Assembly (NCBI GenBank): GCA_008704415.1
Contig: VXIS01000057.1
Location: forward strand, 62,001 to 126,000
Reading direction: 5' to 3'
DNA from: Sphaerosporella brunnea
Taxonomy: Eukaryota; Ascomycota; Pezizomycetes; Pezizales; Pyronemataceae
Length of the DNA stretch: 64,000 nucleotides
A program made the position numbers and the translations under genes. Position 1 is the stretch's first letter, and each line of letters begins with the position of its first letter. The notes under the pieces were generated by a model. It searched no databases and had not been told where the DNA came from. It saw only the letters and a list, made by a program, of their open reading frames with translations. Positions 42,804 to 60,802 of this stretch are shown one piece after another.

Positions 42804-42946
42804 TTAACATGTACTTACCCGCCGGTGGCTTTTATACACGCGTTCCTTAAACGCCTCGGTTCAATAATGTTCTCCGAGAGTGTAAGCCTCATGAATCCGA
42901 TCTACACGCTTAAAAAATTTGAACACAAGCTTATCTGATACACCTT
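42804..42946 (-). pseudogene. C-terminal end of interrupted DDE transposase relic
   Basis: After the CTT duplication, the minus strand reads on in the same frame as the relic at 53378-53664: GVSDKLVFKFFKRVDRIHE, then AYTLGEHY and an in-frame TGA (42861-42863). It then continues TEAFKERVYKSHRRV to TAA. The tail resembles the end of DDE-type fungal transposases. The internal TGA shows the gene was already decaying or has decayed since. The large element separates it from its upstream part by 10.4 kb. Confidence 0.7.
42944..42946 (+). repeat. Target-site duplication CTT (left)
   Basis: CTT directly outside the left terminal repeat; the same triplet lies at 53378-53380 outside the right one. A 3-bp duplication is usual for CACTA-class elements. 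Confidence 0.85.
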
Positions 42947-42968
42947 CCCGAGCATACAAGGAACCCGT
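42947..42968 (+). repeat. Left terminal inverted repeat of the large transposon
   Basis: 22 bp starting CCCGAGCATACAAGG, an exact reverse complement of 53356-53377. Confidence 0.93.
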
Positions 42969-43190
42969 GACGTACGGATTTTTTAAATCCGTGAAAAAAA
43001 TACCGTGAATAACGGGTTCAAAATCCGTAAAACGGTCCCGTCAATATTCCGTAAAGAAAATCCGTAAAAAACCCGTAAAGAAAATACGTAAATAACAGGT
43101 TTTAAATCCGTGAATAAAGCCGTCGATAAATCCGTAGAGAGCGGGTAAAACAATTGAACAGAAATCCGTAAAAGAATTCCGTCGAAAAGT
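42969..43190. repeat. Left subterminal ccgtaaa-type repeats
   Basis: At least ten copies of (a)tccgt(a/g)aa and its variants are spread over about 220 bp, with a few cgggtt inversions. Subterminal arrays of short motifs are the usual transposase binding sites of CACTA-type elements; that role is inferred. The right end shares only a few copies (53308-53355). Confidence 0.7.
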
Positions 43191-43412
43191 GTAATAGGGT
43201 CCACAATGAATGTTGAAAATTAGGTAGCATTTAAAAACTGTACAATCTATATAAACAAATCTGAAATGCCCACCAACGCGCTGCCCAAAAATTCTACAAA
43301 CCGTAAAAGCATTAAAGGTTACCAGGTACGAAAAAAAACTGCTGTAAAATACCGCAGTATACAATAGAAAAAAAAAAGACGGCTAACAAGCAGCTATTGT
43401 AGGTTTTTATCC

Positions 43413-46022
43413 CTAAGAAAAAATTAATCCAAAGAAACACTCTGTAAGAAATCGAAGCATACATACTTCATTATTCTGCAGCTCCTGCATGCGCTGGGAA
43501 TGAGTGTGTTTCACGTGTTTCTGAACAATGACCTTGGATTTTTTGCGAGCTCGAGTTGCTGCAGCATCCGCCTCTTGAGCTTCTGCAGAGGCAAGACGCT
43601 TTGTTTTTGTCCGTGTACGAGGTGTACGAGGTGGCGGTGTGAAATTTGTTTCAACTGCCTTCTTGGTCCGTGCCGAAGCTGAAGTTGCAGTCGGTATCGA
43701 TTTGACAGCCAGGTTCAGTTGTGTTTCAGGTGGGTGAGAGATAGTTGCTGAAGGACTAGCGGCTTCAGAAAACATAACTATCTGCACTTGAATTAGTACA
43801 CTGCAAAGAGCGAAATAAAATTTGACCGAGAAATAGAAGTTGAGTTATCTACCTTTTCAAGATCAAGACAGAGTTCTTCCGGGTCCACAACAACTTTACC
43901 ATGTCGCACACGCTCCAAAAAAAGGTTATAATCATCAACCAAGTCAAAATCCCTGGCGATACAAACTTCACGGTAGCTGTCCTCACCGGTAACAACGTAA
44001 TATCGATAACCAGAGCCGTTATTTCCAATATAGGCCTCGGGTCGATGAATTCGGATGTGTCGATCGACGATGAACATCCATTGTTCCATCAACAAGTTCA
44101 ATGGAAGAACTGTAACTTTGCCCACAATTCGTACTCGATACCACGTACCATCTTCAGCAGTTGGAACAGTAGCTGTGAGGCCTTCCACAATCCGAAAAGC
44201 TGGTCTGGATGAAAGTAGAGGTGGTTCTGCTAGCTCAGTATTCGAGGTTGCTTCTTGTGAAGCAGTGTTATCTTTGGTGGATGCTACAACCGGCTTTGAG
44301 TGAATCGGACGAGCTGCAAGCTTAGATCGGGGTTGACTCTGTTTGCCAGCATTAGATGGAGGCGAGATCTTGGTGACTGACTGTTTTTTAGCTCTTGCAT
44401 GCCTGGTAGTACTAAGTGGATGAGGGATTTCAGCATCAATTTGTGCACGATCCTTGCGTCGGGTAGCAATAGAGCCTTTCACCAAGCCTGCTTCAGCAGT
44501 GGATGTGGGTCGTGGAATGTCTCGATCATCATTGGTTGGAGCCAGAGGACGATGTATATCCTCGTCGCAAGAACTTGGAGATGGAGATGGAGCGATGGGT
44601 ATTTGTATGTCCTCGTCTCTTGTACTGTGATTGGTGGTACGGGTCTTCGATGGTCGGCCCTTTTTTCTAGGCATTCCAAGGATTGCAAGTTCTTTGTTTA
44701 GTGGACGTCGACGATTTTCACGAGTCCGACGAATAATATCTTTGAGAACGTAAATGACCAATTTTCGAGTCCATCGGTATGGTCTCATAGTCTCACACAC
44801 GCCTGGTAAAAGCATATCAGCATAATCACGGCTGTGTGGTGCATAAAATATAAAAGTTCGTACCTGTTATCATGTTTTCCGACTGCCCACGGTCTGTATA
44901 CTCTGTCCAGGTGTCGTGTAAATTGATACCCAAAGTAGAACAGATCTCTTTCACTTTTCCACGCATAAGACGTGACTGTTTTTCCTGGTCTTGCTTGGAC
45001 AGATCGGCCCCGATACCCATAAGGCGACGTAGGGTGGCTTTTTCTGGATTCTTCCACCATTTACTAGTGGTTGGCTGATAAGGTGCGTCGGGCTGGTGTT
45101 TGTGAACAGCTCTATCGGTATCGGTATCACTATCGATTGGCTCTGTGCGCTGTCGCTCGTCAATTGGCTCTGTGCGCTGTCGCTGGTTCTCTGTATCTTT
45201 ATAGACGTCTCGCGGATTGTCCTATGCGAAGTCAATGTGCATTCAAGTACTCTAGGTTGGTTCCGAAATACAATTTGACTTTCTTGTGGAAAGCGAACGT
45301 GCCAGGGAGTAACGGTGTTGGTTTTATCAGTGGTACACTCAATATGATCGCTGATATGATCCTCGTCTGTATTAGCTTTGTCATTGTTGGTAGCAACCAT
45401 ATCCTCGTCCTCGCTCGACGTGATATCATCCTGAGCATCCTGATGGCAATCATCGTTCCAGGTATTGACTTCGTCGTCACTCTCCTCATTTCTATGAACA
45501 TCTTTTTTAGCGGCACAGCTTTTACACACGTCCAAGTTGCCATACTTCCGTGTATCTGCCTGTGATTCTTCACCACCGATGACTCCGGTTTGAATCGCTG
45601 AGAGAGGAAAATCAAACTGCTTATAGCTGTCGGCAGGTGGGGAAGGAAAAGTTTCCAGAAGAGTGTCGGGAATTAGCAAGCGTTTCGAAGCCCAAGATGT
45701 ATCGAGAACTGGAGTTGAAGTCTGTGTCTTATCATGAGTAGGATAAATCATAAAGGATGTCGATATCATGTACCTGTGAGTTTGCCAGTTGAGAATTGAG
45801 TTCACGGCGAAGCTTGTAATCACTGTAAAGTGATTCAAACTGGGTCAAACGTGATAAATCGACGGCGTCCATGAGGGTAATATCGATGCTGAGTGCTTTG
45901 AAGACTGATACACTGTGGTTGCCAACGAAGTATGTGCCAGTTGGGTTGTTCGGAGAAAGCCAGCATGGAAAGAATGAGAATGCCACCTTATAATTATCGG
46001 CCCAAGGCATGACGTAGTACAT
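43413..46022 (-). CDS. Transposon accessory protein with AT-hook, function unknown
   Basis: Six exons: 46022-45774, 45721-45272, 45221-44864, 44802-43853, and a last one from 43781. Introns of 52, 50, 61 and 71 bp are supported by frame continuity; about 791 residues if the last frame runs to 43413. A final intron from the GTATGT near 43466 could instead end the protein about 17 residues earlier. No family is recognised. Visible: an N-terminal aromatic-rich part (FSFFPCWLSPNNPTGTYFVG); a long acidic middle (DDCHQDAQDDITSSEDEDM); a twice-repeated ERQRTEPID unit; a charged helix with WWKNPEKATLRRLMGIG and LMRGKVKEICSTLG; an AT-hook-like PRKKGRPSK; and a basic C-terminus (RARKKSK). It is transcribed divergently from the transposase with 219 bp between start codons. 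A DNA-binding TnpA-like partner is a reasonable guess. The start codon is uncertain (46022 or 46010). Confidence 0.65.
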
Positions 46023-46241
46023 ATGCAAGAATACTAGCGTTGCAGTTAGACACCCATTGTGAGTTTTGTGTGGGTGAATATACGCGGGTGGCAGTCGGAC
46101 GTTGGTTGCCGAAAAAAAAAACATTGTACGGTTGTGCCTCACCTCATGGTGATGTGGGTGTGAACCAACGGATCTTGACGCCACTAACATTGACACACCA
46201 TCATCGACACACCATCAGAAGCATCAAGGGACGAAGAAATT
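46023..46241. promoter_or_regulatory. Divergent promoter region of the transposon
   Basis: 219 bp separate the predicted starts of the accessory gene (minus) and the transposase gene (plus), so both are probably driven from here. A 9-base A run (46111-46119) and the repeated word 'catcgacacaccatc' near 46200 are the only visible patterns. Confidence 0.4.
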
Positions 46242-49200
46242 ATGCCTCGAGACTTATCGCGTCAGAGGAGCCCGATTGCTCCACTAGATGCATCCAGCCG
46301 TTCAGTACCGATGGCTGCAGAATCAGCTGTCAAAACTGCAGCGAAGCGGAGAAAAACGACGACATTTATACCTCTAGCACCACTACCAGAAGCAATACCA
46401 CTTGCCAGCGAGCAAGCAATCGCCGCTGCCAAACCTGCGGATTTTCGTTCGTCACAAGCAGCAAAAACGACAGTACCTGTTGCGATAAATCGAATCTCAG
46501 CAACAAGTCCAACTCCTGAAAAATCGCCGTGCTCAGGAGCAATGTCCACTACAGGGACACCCACTATGTTGCAGTTCGAGCTCTCGGCAAAAGAACAGTA
46601 CACCGACATCAACAATTCCACCGAAAATCCTGATGACCCAAGAGCTAAACAAGCCTATAATCAGACGTCGAGTCCGGACGATGATGATAATCCAGTGGCC
46701 GGTAGCTATGGACAGGACAGCAATTCATACTCACCCAAACCAGCAGGTGATATGCATAATGGCTTTTTGGACAACGATGAAAGCGATATACCTGAGTTGG
46801 GACTCGAGATTCCTGGCCATGAGCAATATCCTACTATGGAACAGATCAGTCGGAGCATTGAGGAAACACCACTTGACGATGGCTTTACCGATGAACGACC
46901 ACCAAATAGGATTCCACTACGGTTTAATCTCGATGAGGAGGATGAACTTATTGCAGCGGGCAATATGTTTCAATATGGTATTCTTCCGGTTCTGTCTGGA
47001 TGCGAATTCTATCTATAGCCCTCTATCAAATTAAGACACGGTGCAACGTTGCGTTGGACACACATTTGGAATACCTGAAAGTTGTCCGTACCCTTCTCAA
47101 GTATCGGATTCTGGATCCTCGAACTGTTGAAACTACGTTGGAGCGAATCACTGGAATTAAACATGAGCGGTACGACGTTTGTCGGAATGGCTGTCTCTGT
47201 TTTGCAAAACCAGAGTACGCTGAAATGACAGAGTGTCCAATGTGTGGAGAAGCTAGGCGGGATGGGAATTGTAAGTTCTGTAAAAATCCAGAAATGATAA
47301 GAGACGAAAAACTGATCAATCACTGCAGCTGTTGCCTATCAGACATACGATTATATCCCACTAGTACACCAATTAAGGCTGCAGTATTCAAATCCGGAGA
47401 GAGCTAGAGATCTTGTACAATACCGTGAAGATCTTCGAAAAGAGCGAACAGGTGGTCCCGAATGCGACGAATCTGTCCTGCGAGATTTCTGGGATGGAAA
47501 GTTATGCCATACACTCCAGCAAAATGGCCTATTAAATGCCGAGTCCGATATTGCGCTGGCGATGTCCACTGACGGAGTTGAGCTATTCCGAAAAGGCAAG
47601 AAACATCAAGTCTGGCCAATCATACTTCAGTGCTATAATCTTGCTCCACAGCTTCGATTCAATGAGGATAATATCATATGTAGCGGTGTTATCCCAGGGC
47701 CGTGCAAACCCAAGGACATCGACTCGTTCCTATATCCCACCATCAGAGACCTGAAAATTCTTCATAATGGCGTTGATGCCTATAACGGGGCTACCAACTC
47801 CCAGTTTACACTCCGAGCGCATGTGGTAACAGTCACAGCTGACATGCCTGCACGGGATATGTTGATGGGCGTGGCCGGTTATAACTCGCGCCATTACTGC
47901 AACTACTGTACCATCCGAGGATGCTCTGGATACAAATCCACATACGTTGGACATTCCGACTGCAGTGACGATTTCGACATGTCTGATACAGCCGATGCTG
48001 ATGACAATCCTGCTAAACGTCAGCTTGATCTCGAGGATGTTGATATGCCCAACACGTTCGACTTGCAAGAGAAATTCATCCAGCCGGAGTCTCAACACCA
48101 ACGAAGAGGCACTCATATGTACTGTCCCTTGAAACCTCCTTACGATGTACCTAGACATCCAGACTGGCGTGATTACAACCCCAGCAATCTTCGCCCTCGT
48201 GTACATCGTGAAGAGGAACAGACCGCTAGCTATTTCGTTAACACCGTGGATTCTACGGATGGCTCTGCGGCTGAAAACTTACCTGATGAGTCATTTCATC
48301 GTGATTCCCGACTGTCCAAGGTGCAGCTCAGTCAGATAACACACGCAACCGGAATTCAAAAACGTTCTTCCTTATGGGACTTGCCATCTCTCATTTGGCC
48401 GTGGTAAGTTCTTTGAGTTGCTATGGGTTGTGGTTTTAGTTAGATGGCAGTCATGCTAACCTCTGAATGTCCGTCAACAGGAGTTTTCCGATCGATAGTA
48501 TGCATTTGTTTTATTTGAACGTTGTGCCAAATATGAGAGACCATTGGCAAGGAAATTTCTTTTCCTGGGAGCGTCAGCCTGGAGCTTTCAAAACGGCACA
48601 ACAAGCTACGTTCAAACCCAGTGGAGAGCCTTACTGCATTGCTCCGGAAGAATGGAAAAGAATCGATCAGGATATCAAGTCCATGATACACCCTGCTGTC
48701 TTTGGAGACCGAATTCGTGGCGTCCAAGAATTTCGAAAAGCGAATCAGTGGAAGACTTGGGCTCAGGTTGTATCACCAATTGTTCTGAAGAACCGCCTTC
48801 CGGAACCATTTTATTCCGCATGGACCCAGCTTGTGCATGGCATGACCTTAGCTACAGACTATTCTGTCAGTGCGAAAGACATCACCGATATACAGGAGTC
48901 CATGATCCAATTTGTCAACCATTACCATGAGGTATACTACCGGTATCAAAACAAACGGCTTCCAGCATGCCGAGCTGTGTTTCATGCCCTCTTGCATGTT
49001 GCCGAATGTGTTGAATGGCTCGGGCCTATGTGGTCCTATTCTCAATGGGTTGTGGAAAGAATGTTTGGTCTTTGGACTCCGAAAGTAAAACAACGTGCTT
49101 CCGCATCGCGCAATTTATCGCTTGCCATGCTACGAAGTTCATTGGTCAGCAATCTCAAATATGGGGCTGATTTAATGGCTTGTAGTTGTTCAACTATGCC

Positions 49201-49997
49201 TTGTCCTATTAACTCGGAGGATGAACAGACCACAGAAAATGATGAGATTTCTGTGCTTCTAGGTGGACTGAGAGGTATGGACAACCAGGACGACAATAAT
49301 GGCATACCACGTTATTGCTGGGACGAGAACCATCAAAGCACTCTTCACCATCACATTCGGCCTCCCATGCCACTAAGCGTAGCACAGTTAATCAAACTCA
49401 ATGCCTACTTGAATGGCCTTGATCTTATGCTGCCTTTAACGGTGAACCTTTCAGCAGAGATCCGTGGCGGCGGTCGGACAAAGAACGCCAGAAAGGACGA
49501 TTCTCTTACCAATGTTAAGGTTGACATCTGGCAAAAGTGTCTTTTGCAGCGATCCAAGTGCTCCTCAAAGTTTGTATCGATCCTATATTCGTTCCGCCGC
49601 ATACGAAAAGGCTGGAGCTCGAGACTCCACATATGTCCGCTATGAACTCATTCAGGAAAAAGTTGATACCAACGGACGTCCGGTTTGCTGTACTGTTGGT
49701 AAATTTGGGCGTGTCCTGTTTTTCTGTGAATTTAATGGCTGGCAACCATCGACAAGAGCCCCATATCATCTTTTACTTGCTTGGGTTGAAGAAGTTCCAG
49801 TGGTTGGAGAAGTGATGGCTGCTGGTACTCTTTACCACATAAAAGAATCTCCGACAAGAGCTATCAACGATAGCTCTGACTTGCGATACTTCATTAATGT
49901 CGACAGCATATCGTGTTTGACGGGAATTGTTTCCGTCACTGTTCATGACGGTAAAAGTGCGCGGTACATAATTGAGAAGGATTCCTGTTTTTTGTAA
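46242..49997 (+). CDS. CACTA/Plavaka-like (Tnp2-type) transposase
   Basis: Exons 46242-46977, 47019-47270, 47329-48403 and from 48481; introns of 41, 58 and 77 bp. The N-terminal 245 residues are Ser/Pro/Asp-rich with a basic AKRRKT stretch. Next is a zinc-finger-like segment (YDVCRNGCLCF, then CPMCGEAR), then YDYIPLVHQLRLQYSNP and RDFWDGK. The core follows: HQVWPIILQCYNLAPQLRF, GVAGYNSRHYCNYC and, across the third splice, LPSLIWPWSFPIDSMHLFYL with VVPNMRDHW. It continues with HALLHVAECVEWLGPMWSYS and WVVERMFGLWTPKVKQRASA. These are features of the Tnp2-like transposases of CACTA and Plavaka elements; I did not map catalytic acids. The C-terminal part (SYIRSAAYEKAGARDSTYVR onward, to 49997) lies in another frame from about 49555, and no acceptable intron joins it, so a frameshift is suspected. 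The 41-bp first intron is unusually short. Confidence 0.85.
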
Positions 49998-50475
49998 GCT
50001 AGTGTCTACTTTGGGGGTGGTAACCCACATCTTGTAACTGGACATTTGTAGGGAAAATTGTCAAGATAGGAGTCTTCAGGGTGGGATGGCGGGTGTAAAC
50101 AACTGTTCCAGCTGCGGTACGATGCCAGAGCTGCCCCAGGTGCGCTCTGGATTAGGCTTGGATGCACTTGTTGACAGTTTTGAGCGCACGGACAAAGTCC
50201 TTGGTGAGAGCGAAAAATAACAGACAAGAAGCCTCTGCTGACTGCTGCCGTCCGTACTTCATTGCTCGTCACAGTACTTTTTTGGTGTTTTCTTGGTACC
50301 TGTTGTCGCTGTTAGCTTGCTTTACCAGAATTTTCCCTTTTAAACATCTCGTTGGGCATCCCATTGGGTTTTCCTCGCTTCTCCCTTAGTAGATTTTAAC
50401 CTGGAAAAACATGTTTTTTTCCTAATGAACCCAACCAATTTAACAGCAATATAACATGAATTCCCCCTTATCTCC
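49998..50475. other. Spacer between converging transposon genes
   Basis: 478 bp, 3' flanks of the transposase (plus) and the dioxygenase gene (minus). No motif recognised; T-rich near 50270-50420. Confidence 0.4.
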
Positions 50476-52237
50476 TTATCCGAATGCCCTCATGTCCTCA
50501 TGGAATGCAAAGACCCAACTGAAACGACTTTTACCTCTCCATTTTGTTGTGAAGTGCTCCATCTTGTTCCCCCTAATACCTATCACCGCACCAGGTTGAA
50601 AGTGCAATTTTCTCTCCAGCAATGTCAAACAAAACAAGCCATCTTCATAGCTTCCAAAGGGTGTTAACCACGTCCACCCACCCTGCCAATCTTTGTGGTC
50701 TTGATAGGGTTCAGTCAACAAATTGACGAGCAATGCCTGAAAGTGGAATATTTCTTCAGGTCTGGCGGAAATGACTTCTCGGTTCCCTTCCTGACGAATC
50801 CCTGCAAACTTCTGTCGGTACTGATCTCTCATTACCTTGTCAATCCCTGCAAAGCAGACATCGATTGTCTGTGAAATATTGGACGCCCAAAGCTGTAGAT
50901 CTCGAATCATGGTACTTGCATATTGACCATGCTGAGTCATGTCCTTCATCAGAACACAGGGACTATGCTGATGGCCTACTTCTTTCCACAATCCAAAGTA
51001 ATAAATTCCGGACCGGCCTGACGGACCAGATGCCCATTCAAAAGCTTGATTCTCCTCTTCCATCCTCCACTTATCAAAAAGACCATGGCGACGAGTGTCT
51101 TTAGGCTTTTTCGGCGGTACAAACTGTATCAGCTTGTTGATATTTTGGGTGCTGGTCTCGACAATCTCTCCTCCCATGGTTGATCCCCATGTCCGTTTAT
51201 AAGCATCATGGTACAGGACTATCAGTGGCTTCCCCTCCTTGTCCAACGCAATGTACGACTTGTCCGGGGGGATTTTGGTGTAGCTTTCGGCATTGGCAAG
51301 CGCTTCCTCCATATCTGTTCCTTTGGCAGTAGACAGCAATTTTGACAGGTCAATATCAAAGAAGTATTCAATGATCTTTTCCGCACCATCAAACCGCCAG
51401 GTCTTCTTTCCCTCCAGTCTGGCCTTTTCCATTAAAGCAGTTTGCTGCTTGCTCAGCTGAAAAAACTCTTTATAGACGGTGTCTTTATAGCGGGGTCGCG
51501 CTCGTCCCTTTCGAGTGTTGTGCGGAATGTAGTCTTGAATGTTGAACCTCTCAGAGCTCAAATAGTTTGCAGCATTGCTTGGCTCAAAGTGCTGCCGAAT
51601 GGTGGATGCAGCTTGGGAGCGTGGTTTTTCTGTGAGTTCTAACTGCGATTTTAGTCTTTATTGCGGCCAACATATATGATCTAGGATTACCTTGCAGGGA
51701 TGCACCTATTAATTGGAACTCTGTCTCATCTTTTTCTGTTCCAGGGAAGTCTCGTTGTCTTTGTGCCATAGGCTTGCGGTTCCGTGATTTTTTCGGGGGC
51801 CGTCCTGCACCTGTGTAGTCCTTGGATGATGCGGATTGACTAGCTTTTATTCGCGCTAATTCTTCTACTTCCTTCTTTCTTTTTTTTTCCAATGTTTGCC
51901 GTGTATAATTTTTCCATTTTCCACTAACGGGATCGACATGGTCGGGATATCGGTATGGCTCCCGAACATAGTCCGGCTTAGAACGTGTTCCATCGTTTGG
52001 ATATACAGCAGCTGATATTGGAAATTGATAGCTCCTGTCAGTCGGGTGTTCTGCCATGATAGGATATTCCCAACACTCTTCTTTTTCATCTCTGACGTAA
52101 GGTTCTGCAGCCTTATCTTCGTTGTCGTCGGTTGGGGGCCACGGAGGCGATAACTCTCTGTTATTGCCAATTCCCAAGATGTTGTCCTGGTCCGCTTCTG
52201 TATTGACACCAGCGAATGATGTTTCCTCTTGTTCCAT
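50476..52237 (-). CDS. Putative TET/JBP-family 2-oxoglutarate/Fe(II) dioxygenase, transposon-borne
   Basis: Two exons: 52237-51691 and 51638-50476; a 52-bp phase-1 intron; 569 residues. The N-terminal 180 residues are charged and carry an AT-hook-like TGAGRPPKKSRNRKP (about 142-156), suggesting DNA binding. The C-terminal domain has the double-stranded beta-helix ligand pattern. HKD (His497, Asp499) gives the HxD iron motif; it is followed by WQGGWTWLTPFGSYEDG and LHFQPGAVIGIRG. The distal His is His544 in KMEHFTTKW, and Arg554 in SRFSWVFAFH is a candidate 2-oxoglutarate ligand. The order, the G-rich strand before the distal His and the aromatic end fit fungal TET/JBP proteins, which oxidise 5-methylcytosine or thymine in DNA. 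Substrate is not shown by the sequence; another 2OG-oxygenase chemistry is possible. It is oriented opposite to the transposase and lies at the right end of the element. Confidence 0.78.
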
Positions 52238-52311
52238 TTCAACGGTGATGGATTTGTAATTTTCTTACTTTGAATCAGCGCATATTTGGCAACAGAGCAG
52301 GCGGCAATATC

Positions 52312-52594
52312 ATCAAAATTTGGCAGCACCTCCCCATGCAATCAGCCCCGGCTACAGATAGAGCGGCCTTCTGGCAGCACTCCACTCTGCACCGTGCTTT
52401 GGTGTTAGAGTAGCAACTCGGGGGTATAGAAAGAATGGTAGGTTTCGAGGTTGAAGAAAGCATCGCGGGATAGAGTCGCAGCAACAGGCCTGATGGCAGC
52501 ATCACCAAAATTTGGCAGCACCTCCCCATGCAATCAGCCCCGGCTGCAGATTGAGTGGCCTTCTGGCAGCACTCCTCTCTGCACAGTGCTTTGG
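52312..52594 (+). repeat. Direct repeat pair of about 90 bp in the right subterminal region
   Basis: 52312-52402 and 52501-52594 match closely (ggcagcacctccccatgcaa, then cagccccggct, then ggccttctggcagcactcc), with weaker similarity between the sequences that follow. The unit length is about 180-190 bp. It lies just upstream of the dioxygenase start, so it may be part of that promoter or of transposase binding sites. Confidence 0.8.
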
Positions 52595-52924
52595 GATTTG
52601 AGTAATGAAGTGTGGTGGTATTGGAAGATGTTTACAGGCAGAACAGCAAGCGTAGAGGTGGAAGAAAAACCGCAGGTAGAGCAAAGGGTAGAGTGGCTGA
52701 GCACAAAGCTCGGAGGCAGAGCACAGAGCTTGGAGGCAGAGCAAAAACAAGTTGGCGGCATTTCTCTGTACCTTTTTGCTGCAGTCACAGAACAGAAACT
52801 AGTACGACAAAACCCCCGACAGGCAAGCCCGCACTGGAGGTTTTTAAGGGCACTGCTCGCACGCAAGCTCGTCACCCAGATCGTATTTCTTTCTTGTAGA
52901 CTGCTGGCTGCGTAGTTGCACCAA

Positions 52925-53078
52925 CCGTTACGCGAGCGAGGATGTGGACGACCGTCGCGCGAGGATATAGACGACCGTTACGCGAGCGAGGATGTGGACG
53001 ACCGTCGCGCGAGGATGTGGACGACCGTCGCGCGAGGATATTGATGACCGTTACGCGAGCGAGGATGTAGACGACCGG
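52925..53078 (+). repeat. CpG-dense tandem repeats
   Basis: About five copies of a roughly 27-31 bp unit with the core gaccgt(ta/cg)cgcgag(cgag)gat, in which nearly every few bases is a CpG. It lies about 300-450 bp inside the right end of the transposon. Confidence 0.85.
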
Positions 53079-53147
53079 GGAGTAGTTGGGTGGGAGGATA
53101 CGCAGGCGCGCGGTTGGTAAGATGGAAATGTGGGGGGAAGATGCTGC

Positions 53148-53193
53148 TGGTGGTGGTGGTGGTGGTGGTGGTGGTGGTGGTGGTGGTGGTGGT
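53148..53193 (+). repeat. TGG microsatellite
   Basis: About 15 uninterrupted TGG triplets, inside the right subterminal region of the transposon. Confidence 0.95.
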
Positions 53194-53355
53194 AGACTGG
53201 CTGCGGGCGGTGGTTGCGAATGATGTTCCAGACGGCACCCGTTTCCGTTCGTCACGTCTTTTCTATGCCTCACCCGGACGTCACCCGTCGGGTACGGCAT
53301 TCCAAATCCGTACCGCTTTTTACACCCGTACTATGCGGGTTTTAATCCGTGAGTT

Positions 53356-53377
53356 ACGGGTTCCTTGTATGCTCGGG
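53356..53377 (-). repeat. Right terminal inverted repeat of the large transposon
   Basis: Exact reverse complement of 42947-42968; followed by the CTT duplication at 53378-53380. Confidence 0.93.
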
Positions 53378-53380
53378 CTT
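53378..53380 (+). repeat. Target-site duplication CTT (right)
   Basis: CTT outside the right terminal repeat, pairing with 42944-42946. Confidence 0.85.
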
Positions 53381-59347: not shown

Positions 59348-60802
59348 TTAGCCATCGACGGGCTCTACTCCCTCCATCCTGCTTTCTTTGGCAATATCCG
59401 TCTTTTCAACCTCCTCCATTTTGTTCTCTTCTGCGGCCGCATCCTCCTTGCCCTTGCTCACAGTCGCGCCAACGTTTGAGGAAGTGGCAGTCTGGGTTTC
59501 GTCCGGCTTCTGCCTGCTAGTAAACGCCTTCTCGGCTTTGAGAGCGGCTTCCACCATTGCTTCCTCGTCGTGAACGCCAAACTCGTCATCCGCATCTGCA
59601 ACATCTGTTGCCTTCTTCAACGCTTCCTTTCTCAGCCCAACAGGTGTACTGCCGTGCAAACTCCAATTAATTGGCCCCTTGTCACCATACTTGAGCTCAA
59701 GCCATTCGTTGGCCTTTTTGAAGTGCCCGGCATCAAACTGATCCTATTAGCACATAGACAACTGGTCAAAGGCGTCGAGCTGCTTACGAATCCTCTCATG
59801 GCACTCAAAGGACTAGGGTGCACACTCTTCAAAACTAGATGACGCTTTGTATCCAGTTTTGCAACTCGCTTTGCAGCTTCAGCTCCCCAGGCCATGAACA
59901 CAACACCACCCTTGCGTCGTTGTGCGACGGCCTCGAGTGCTTTTCCAGTCAATCTTTCCCAGCCTTTGTTTGCATGGCTGGCGGGAGCGCCGGCGCGCAC
60001 AGTCAAGCAGGCATTGAGCATGAGCACCCCACGCTCTGCCCAAGGGACCAACGAGCCACCTCGATTCGGCGGAGCAGTAAATTCAGGATAATCATTCTTG
60101 AGACCTTTGTAGATATTCTGAAGACTGGGTGGCGCGGGGGTTGGGGGATGGACCGAGAAGGAGAGACCCATAGCCTGATTGGGGCCGTCTTGTGAAGTGA
60201 TTGTCAGCGAAGGTTATTAAAGGACGTGCAGGCCGGAAACAAAACATACGATAGGGGTCCTGTCCAAGGATCACCACCTTGACGGTATCCAACGGGCAAT
60301 AGCGGGACCAAGAATATATATCCTTGCTCGGAGGATAGACGACGCCCTTTTCCTCGGAAAGGAATTTCTTTAGTCTCAAAAATCCATCTGAAACGAGCTC
60401 GTCTTTCAACGCCCCGAGCCAGCTCTCGTGCATGGTTTCAATCTCGAGAGCGAGGAGACTCTTTTGCTCCTCACTGAGCGACGAAACCCAGGCCGCTCTG
60501 TCGAATTTTGGGAGAGCCGTTGAGAGAGAGGACGGGCCAGACGCAGATGCCTGTTTGGGAGTGAAAAAAGAGGTTATAGAACGCGTCTTTTTCGCAGGCG
60601 TCGCGGGTGTTGCGGGCGCTTTGCGTTTGAGGGTAGGGGGAGACATGGTAGGGGAGAGATGTTGGAGACTGAAGGTGCGATGAGAGGAGCACAAGAAGTG
60701 GTGGATGGTTGGTAGGGATGGAGAAGAATACGTGGAAGCAGGAGTGAGGGTCTCACACAGCGGAGAGAGGACGCGTCGTGAACGTGACGTCCAGAGTCGC
60801 AT
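59348..60802 (-). CDS. UNG1: Uracil-DNA glycosylase (UNG family)
   Basis: Three exons: 60802-60250, 60188-59788 and 59743-59348; introns of 61 and 44 bp; 449 residues. The enzyme removes uracil from DNA to start base-excision repair in nucleus and mitochondria. The first splice rebuilds the water-activating motif GQDPYHGPNQAMGLSFSV (Asp182, His185). Other landmarks are GVLMLNACLTVR, VVFMAWGAEA and the uracil-binding loop HPSPLSA (His308). After the second splice come DQFDAGHFKKANEWL and GPINW. The first ATG gives an Arg/Ser-rich mitochondrial-type leader. A second ATG at 60646 (MSPPTLKRKAPATP) begins a nuclear-type start, followed by a PCNA-box-like SITSFFTPKQ. The C-terminus has an extra charged tail of about 105 residues not usual in UNG proteins. 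Confidence 0.94.

Follow-up and report, generated by a model that had tools for sequence, protein, structure and literature searches.

The 64,000-nucleotide stretch of Sphaerosporella brunnea DNA analysed here (the window, C523:62001-126000 of a 50.6 Mb assembly) contains a transposon that carries a tnp2-type transposase gene and, convergent with it, a gene for a dioxygenase of the TET/JBP family. The explanation that we favour, and regard as reasonably probable, is that intact forms of the enzyme carried by such elements oxidise 5-methylcytosine (5mC) on the element and so counter silencing, the copy in the window being probably dead. The sequence-only reading of this DNA had proposed a transposon-borne TET/JBP-like dioxygenase in an ascomycete, its gene enclosed entirely by an element whose ends are intact. 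Both points are borne out, as the host belongs to the Pezizomycetes (Pyronemataceae) and the gene lies within 42947-53377, between 22-base-pair (bp) perfect repeats with a CTT duplication.

The transposon and its ends

The ends of the element were located by comparison of copies, as those at C446 and C420 align with window positions 42947-53377 and stop there. The features that define the element and its transposase are as follows.

42947..53377: whole transposon, 10,431 bp; the C523, C446 and C420 copies start and stop together
42947..42968, plus strand: left end, 22-bp perfect inverted repeat, from copy comparison
53356..53377, minus strand: right end, 22-bp perfect inverted repeat, from copy comparison
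42944..42946: target site duplication CTT, left
53378..53380: target site duplication CTT, right
47562..48407, plus strand: transposase part, Transposase_21 (tnp2) match (PF02992, E-value 6.9e-23)
48467..49997, plus strand: probable C-terminal transposase part, two overlapping open reading frames (ORFs) in different frames, homologous to one open frame of C635

The end sequence is CCCGAG..CTCGGG, and the three copies are flanked by different target duplications, CTT in the window and CCA and GTG in the other two. A 21-base end pattern occurs in the window only at both ends (0.00 expected), and a 14-base end motif was found 25 times in the genome, with no occurrence of its reversed control. Three-bp duplications flank seven of the eight copies examined, the exception being C635, a diverged relative of 10,477 bp that shares the end motif. 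Around C24 the search for inverted ends gave nothing convincing. The element has transposed in the past. Four elements of 941-964 bp (L056, L057, L058 and L059), whose ends are related and whose 3-bp duplications are perfect, are non-autonomous derivatives.

The outer 250 bp are dense in the CpG-containing motif CCGT/ACGG, with 64 and 36 occurrences per kilobase at the two ends vs 5 per kilobase inside, densities reached by 0 and 0.04% of 5000 shuffles. Tandem repeats (23-, 50- and 73-bp units and a TGG run) also lie within the right end of the element, at 52924-53193.

The dioxygenase and tnp2 genes are convergent in the window, and the same arrangement is found in C446, C420, C635 and C24. 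In the C446 element, about 780 bp replace 80 bp of the transposase region, between the parts that match window positions 49007 and 49088. The order of D, D, CNYC, HALLH and E, picked out by eye in the transposase ORFs, fits the motif order given in PMC12730594. The ends begin with CCC and not with the CAC of CACTA/EnSpm elements, for which reason the element is called EnSpm-like, within the wider CMCT kind, and not EnSpm proper. It also lacks the CATCA..TGATG ends described for PlavakaB (PMC12730594). Of the earlier label "CACTA/Plavaka-like", the CACTA-like part stands on the Transposase_21 match, while no match named Plavaka was obtained. The KDZ model PF18758 had no match in the scanned ORFs of the element or in the genome, where the search control gave no match either.

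The dioxygenase gene and its active site

The reading of a gene at 50476-52237 holds; it contains an intron and has its two exons on the minus strand. Residue numbering throughout follows the 569-residue model.

50476..52237, minus strand: TET/JBP-like dioxygenase gene, two exons (ORF list, splice models, alignment, match to a Protein Data Bank (PDB) profile)
51639..51690, minus strand: intron of the 569-residue model (alternative end 51630), from GT-AG splice pairs
50704..50706, minus strand: codon 494, Tyr here; counterpart of the CcTet metal ligand His326 (alignment, PDB profile)
50698..50700, minus strand: codon 496, Asp; counterpart of the CcTet metal ligand Asp328 (alignment, PDB profile)
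50689..50691, minus strand: codon 499, invariant Asp; counterpart of Gly331 in CcTet, Asp234 in NgTET1 and Asp350 in CMD1
50554..50556, minus strand: codon 544, His; counterpart of the CcTet metal ligand His376 (alignment, PDB profile)
50524..50526, minus strand: codon 554, Arg; aligns with Arg385 of CcTet, which binds 2-oxoglutarate (2OG) (alignment, PDB profile)

Two GT-AG splice pairs give an open protein, 51690..51639 (569 residues) and 51690..51630 (566 residues), and the sister protein P0001, a public record from S. brunnea, has 569 residues like the first. P0001, P0008 and P0013 correspond to loci C446, C24 and C430. Three homology searches, with window exon 2, a 12-row alignment (which contributed one extra protein) and part of P0008, yielded 17 homologous proteins, among them three from S. 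brunnea and one from Tricharina praecox; no relative was found in the viral contigs scanned.

In the alignment of the window copy with the 17 homologues, Asp496, Asp499, His544 and Arg554 are invariant (18/18), confirming the distal His and the Arg that had been picked out from the letters. All 17 homologues have His at position 494, where the window copy has Tyr. The triad of the family is therefore HxD...H with a 2OG Arg, and the window copy has YxD at 494-496. The HKD at 497-499 that had been taken for the metal motif is displaced by this result, as position 497 is not conserved (H in 11, Q in 5, I in 1 and G in 1 of the 18), although its Asp499 is. In the PDB profile alignment, T491 aligns with the 2OG-contacting Thr323 of CcTet and position 505 with its Asp337.

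When an 18-row profile was compared with 177,635 PDB sequences, there were two matches at E<=10, both to CcTet (E 0.001). When single sequences were compared with Pfam Tet_JBP, matches were obtained for 7 of 12 members with E<=1 as the limit (lowest value 7.1e-5) and for 4 of 10 with E<=0.05, all of them below the curated cut-off; the intact sister exon gave E 0.041. The top-ranked structures for the predicted fold of a relative, a double-stranded beta-helix, were CcTet, NgTET1, TET2 and CMD1, with FTO and other 2OG enzymes lower. A first fold model, from window exon 2 and 13 sequences, had been set aside for its predicted local distance difference test score (pLDDT) of 43. It is very improbable that the protein instead belongs to a different 2OG family (AlkB, FTO, prolyl hydroxylase or a small-molecule oxygenase), since TET/JBP structures score clearly higher and Tet_JBP is the sole 2OG family to appear in the profile searches. 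The outcome that would have refuted the sequence-only reading, a non-TET family such as AlkB or prolyl hydroxylase, or an unrelated fold, coming first, did not arise. Judged by these profile and fold comparisons, the window protein is a member of the TET/JBP family by descent.

NgTET1 Asp234 and CMD1 Asp350 contact 5mC and block N6-methyladenine (6mA) (PMC11040006). Because the invariant Asp499 sits at their place, the alignment predicts a pocket of the conventional 5mC type, not of the 5mC/6mA type of CcTet. That this TET/JBP enzyme works differently, making a hypermodified base or acting on 6mA, thymine or host genes in place of 5mC on the element, seems to us unlikely. In favour of it, CcTet, the nearest solved relative, acts on 6mA too and CMD1 forms a glyceryl adduct (PMC12730594; PMC11040006). 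In addition, 15 of the 18 sequences have Ala at position 505, where CcTet has Asp and conventional TET enzymes have Thr/Ser; the other three, which form the window's own sub-family, have Thr. Against it stand the invariant Asp499 and the CpG decay described below, which indicates 5mC on the element.

The copy in the window and its relatives

We examined 11 family copies out of 26 genomic matches. Tyr494 is present in two of them, the window copy and C543, which group together in the tree (support 97/92), and His494 in the other nine; C631, which belongs to a separate TET family, also has His at the equivalent position. A combination of H1671Y with D1673A has been described as inactivating TET1 (PMC6754513). 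Because Tyr replaces the metal ligand His494 in the same way as in that pair, the enzyme of the window copy is probably catalytically dead, and the role of active eraser of cytosine methylation that had been suggested for this copy falls with its metal His. On the other hand, C446 and C420 keep His494 and an open exon 2, C420 differing at one other family-invariant residue near His544.

The losses speak for a rival view of the gene as a passenger, a host TET gene captured by chance, of no use to the transposon and now decaying. Besides the loss of the metal His in two copies, C579a is frameshifted, many other genomic matches carry stops, and there are tnp2 relatives with no TET match nearby. 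We regard this as improbable, since the active site is conserved in 17 homologues, the gene is retained in tnp2-linked loci whose transposases share just 43-59% identity with that of the window, and the ratio of nonsynonymous to synonymous divergence (dN/dS) is 0.069 in one informative pair (C24 vs C579b; dN 0.088, dS 1.28), out of 28 paralogue pairs of which 24 were saturated in dS and three near-identical.

Carriers elsewhere in the genome

At C579b, C430 and C400 the dioxygenase gene is convergent with a gene for a RecQ-like helicase in place of the transposase. At C400 the helicase gene is interrupted by stops, and one ORF there, scanned with Pfam, showed no helicase. These loci are possibly a second TET-carrying transposon lineage. 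In a 17-row tree the tnp2-linked and helicase-linked genes do not form separate groups, and supported branches force at least two changes per label; the gene, or its neighbours, therefore switched carrier at least once. As some tnp2 relatives lack a TET match nearby (at least C21, C561, C273 and others), the dioxygenase gene is an accessory.

At the three helicase-linked loci, the RecQ-like gene convergent with the TET gene was noted at L018:1867-3438, L015:2079-4812 and C400:25674-27218. Another TET/JBP family is represented at L053:127-2127 (C631) by a 667-residue open frame with ASTAG-type repeats, an HRD motif and a Tet_JBP match at E 7e-4, with a second match at C631:92654-93031. A further Tet_JBP match (L045, C51:3248-3637) has 31.6 bits and one internal stop.

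CpG decay and the weighing of the explanation

Comparison of element copies, excluding the C131 stretch past homology and those parts of C543/C579 that lie left of 48880, gave 163 singleton changes, of which 80 were C>T (counted on both strands). Of these 80, 37 fell at CpG, which makes up 20.6% of C sites (p 2e-7); CpA, with about 31% of C sites, accounted for 19. Classical repeat-induced point mutation at CpA was rejected as the cause of decay, and deamination of methylated CpG is favoured, because the enrichment is at CpG and not at CpA. The pattern suggests that copies of the element were methylated. The 250-bp ends hold 42 of 503 CpGs and none of the 37 changes, a difference too weak to use. 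Elsewhere in the analysis, DNA_methylase gave four genomic matches, distributed over three contigs, and two loci of the uracil-DNA glycosylase superfamily were seen, one of them in the window.

The most likely role of the intact enzyme would be anti-silencing. Intact versions would oxidise 5mC carried by the element, such as that at the subterminal CpGs of its dense ends and at promoters; the transposase could then be produced and bind despite host methylation, and copies with a dead enzyme, such as that of the window, would rely on sister copies.

Several points weigh against this explanation. Pfam Tet_JBP is unmatched by full-length P0001 and by the window exon, and its matches elsewhere all lie under the Pfam cut-off. 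Confidence in the fold model of the relative is moderate (pLDDT 59), with its minimum, below pLDDT 50, at the HxD segment. Loss in single copies is tolerated, as 2 of the 11 have the dead residue. Not every relative needs the gene, since there are tnp2 relatives that lack a TET match nearby. The dN/dS ratio comes from a single informative pair, near-identical copies giving 0.5-1.3 on few changes. Finally, CpG decay can occur without an eraser, and erasure, if any, was incomplete.

Other features of the element and its surroundings

42947..43196: left subterminal region rich in CpG-containing CCGT/ACGG, 16 per 250 bp by motif count; tandem units also seen
43793..44815, minus strand: 340-residue gene, kept in sister copies, 39% identity in the C635 relative
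52289..52604: two 124-bp direct-repeat copies (87%), lying upstream of the dioxygenase gene and shared by four sister copies

The 340-residue gene had no Pfam match, and the 124-bp repeat is a possible promoter repeat. A host gene of the uracil-DNA glycosylase superfamily lies near the element, at 59632-60802 on the minus strand. The AT-hook claimed for the dioxygenase fared poorly: the stretch AGRPPKK has the GRP core of the motif, yet comparison of exon 1 with AT-hook models gave no match at E<=1, and those aligned relatives that reach that far do not conserve it.

Comparison with known systems

In plants, the anti-silencing proteins VANC of VANDAL21 and TnpA of Spm are products of the element itself that lower its methylation. 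The mode proposed here is alike, although VANC and TnpA are not dioxygenases and no homology is claimed. In basidiomycetes, TET/JBP genes linked to KDZ elements were reportedly described by Iyer et al. in 2014; they resemble the present case in the spread of the family with DNA transposons and differ in the transposase, which here is tnp2.

CcTet of Coprinopsis cinerea (PDB 7vpn, 7w5p, 8jkk) is the best match in sequence and fold, and its metal ligands, 2OG Arg and Thr323 align with the family. It differs in that its Gly331 corresponds to an invariant Asp and its Asp337 to Thr or Ala (PMC11040006); the Thr at residue 505 in the window's own sub-family resembles Thr1393 of TET2.

Also close is the system of the TET-bearing fungal DNA transposons, Pezizomycetes included, published in December 2025 (Kojima 2025, PMC12730594), the one primary paper on such transposons in ascomycetes that the literature searches brought up, and cited by a 2026 review (PMC13297926). 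A TET/JBP gene on a DNA transposon, switching of carrier and a proposed escape from methylation are common to both, the function being stated there as not experimentally validated, so that the use by transposons of their own DNA demethylase against host methylation is still a proposal. The suggestion that the present element would extend the known range must be narrowed accordingly, Pezizomycete cases being already in print. The main text of that paper does not name Sphaerosporella but does name the family Helitron-1_SpBr, in which "SpBr" presumably stands for Sphaerosporella brunnea. The carriers it names for Ascomycota are Helitron and IS3EU only, in contrast to the tnp2 element with CCC ends and the helicase-type neighbour found here, and the published hallmark of its PE type is HxE, which sets that type apart from the HxD found here. 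EnSpm elements with TET genes and 3-bp duplications are described there from rusts and Agaricus, and the sections consulted mention no tnp2/EnSpm-like TET carrier or HxD type in ascomycetes.

We lean, by a little, towards regarding the present family as a further Pezizomycete type of transposon-borne TET, characterized by HxD, a predicted 5mC-type pocket, tnp2- and helicase-linked carriers, and intact and dead sub-lineages within one genome. If so, it adds one carrier and one TET type for ascomycetes, and its His494 and Tyr494 sub-lineages allow a transposon's own demethylase to be tested against silencing within one genome, since near-identical copies that differ in a metal residue, and relatives without a nearby TET gene, can be compared by the methylation maps of one strain.
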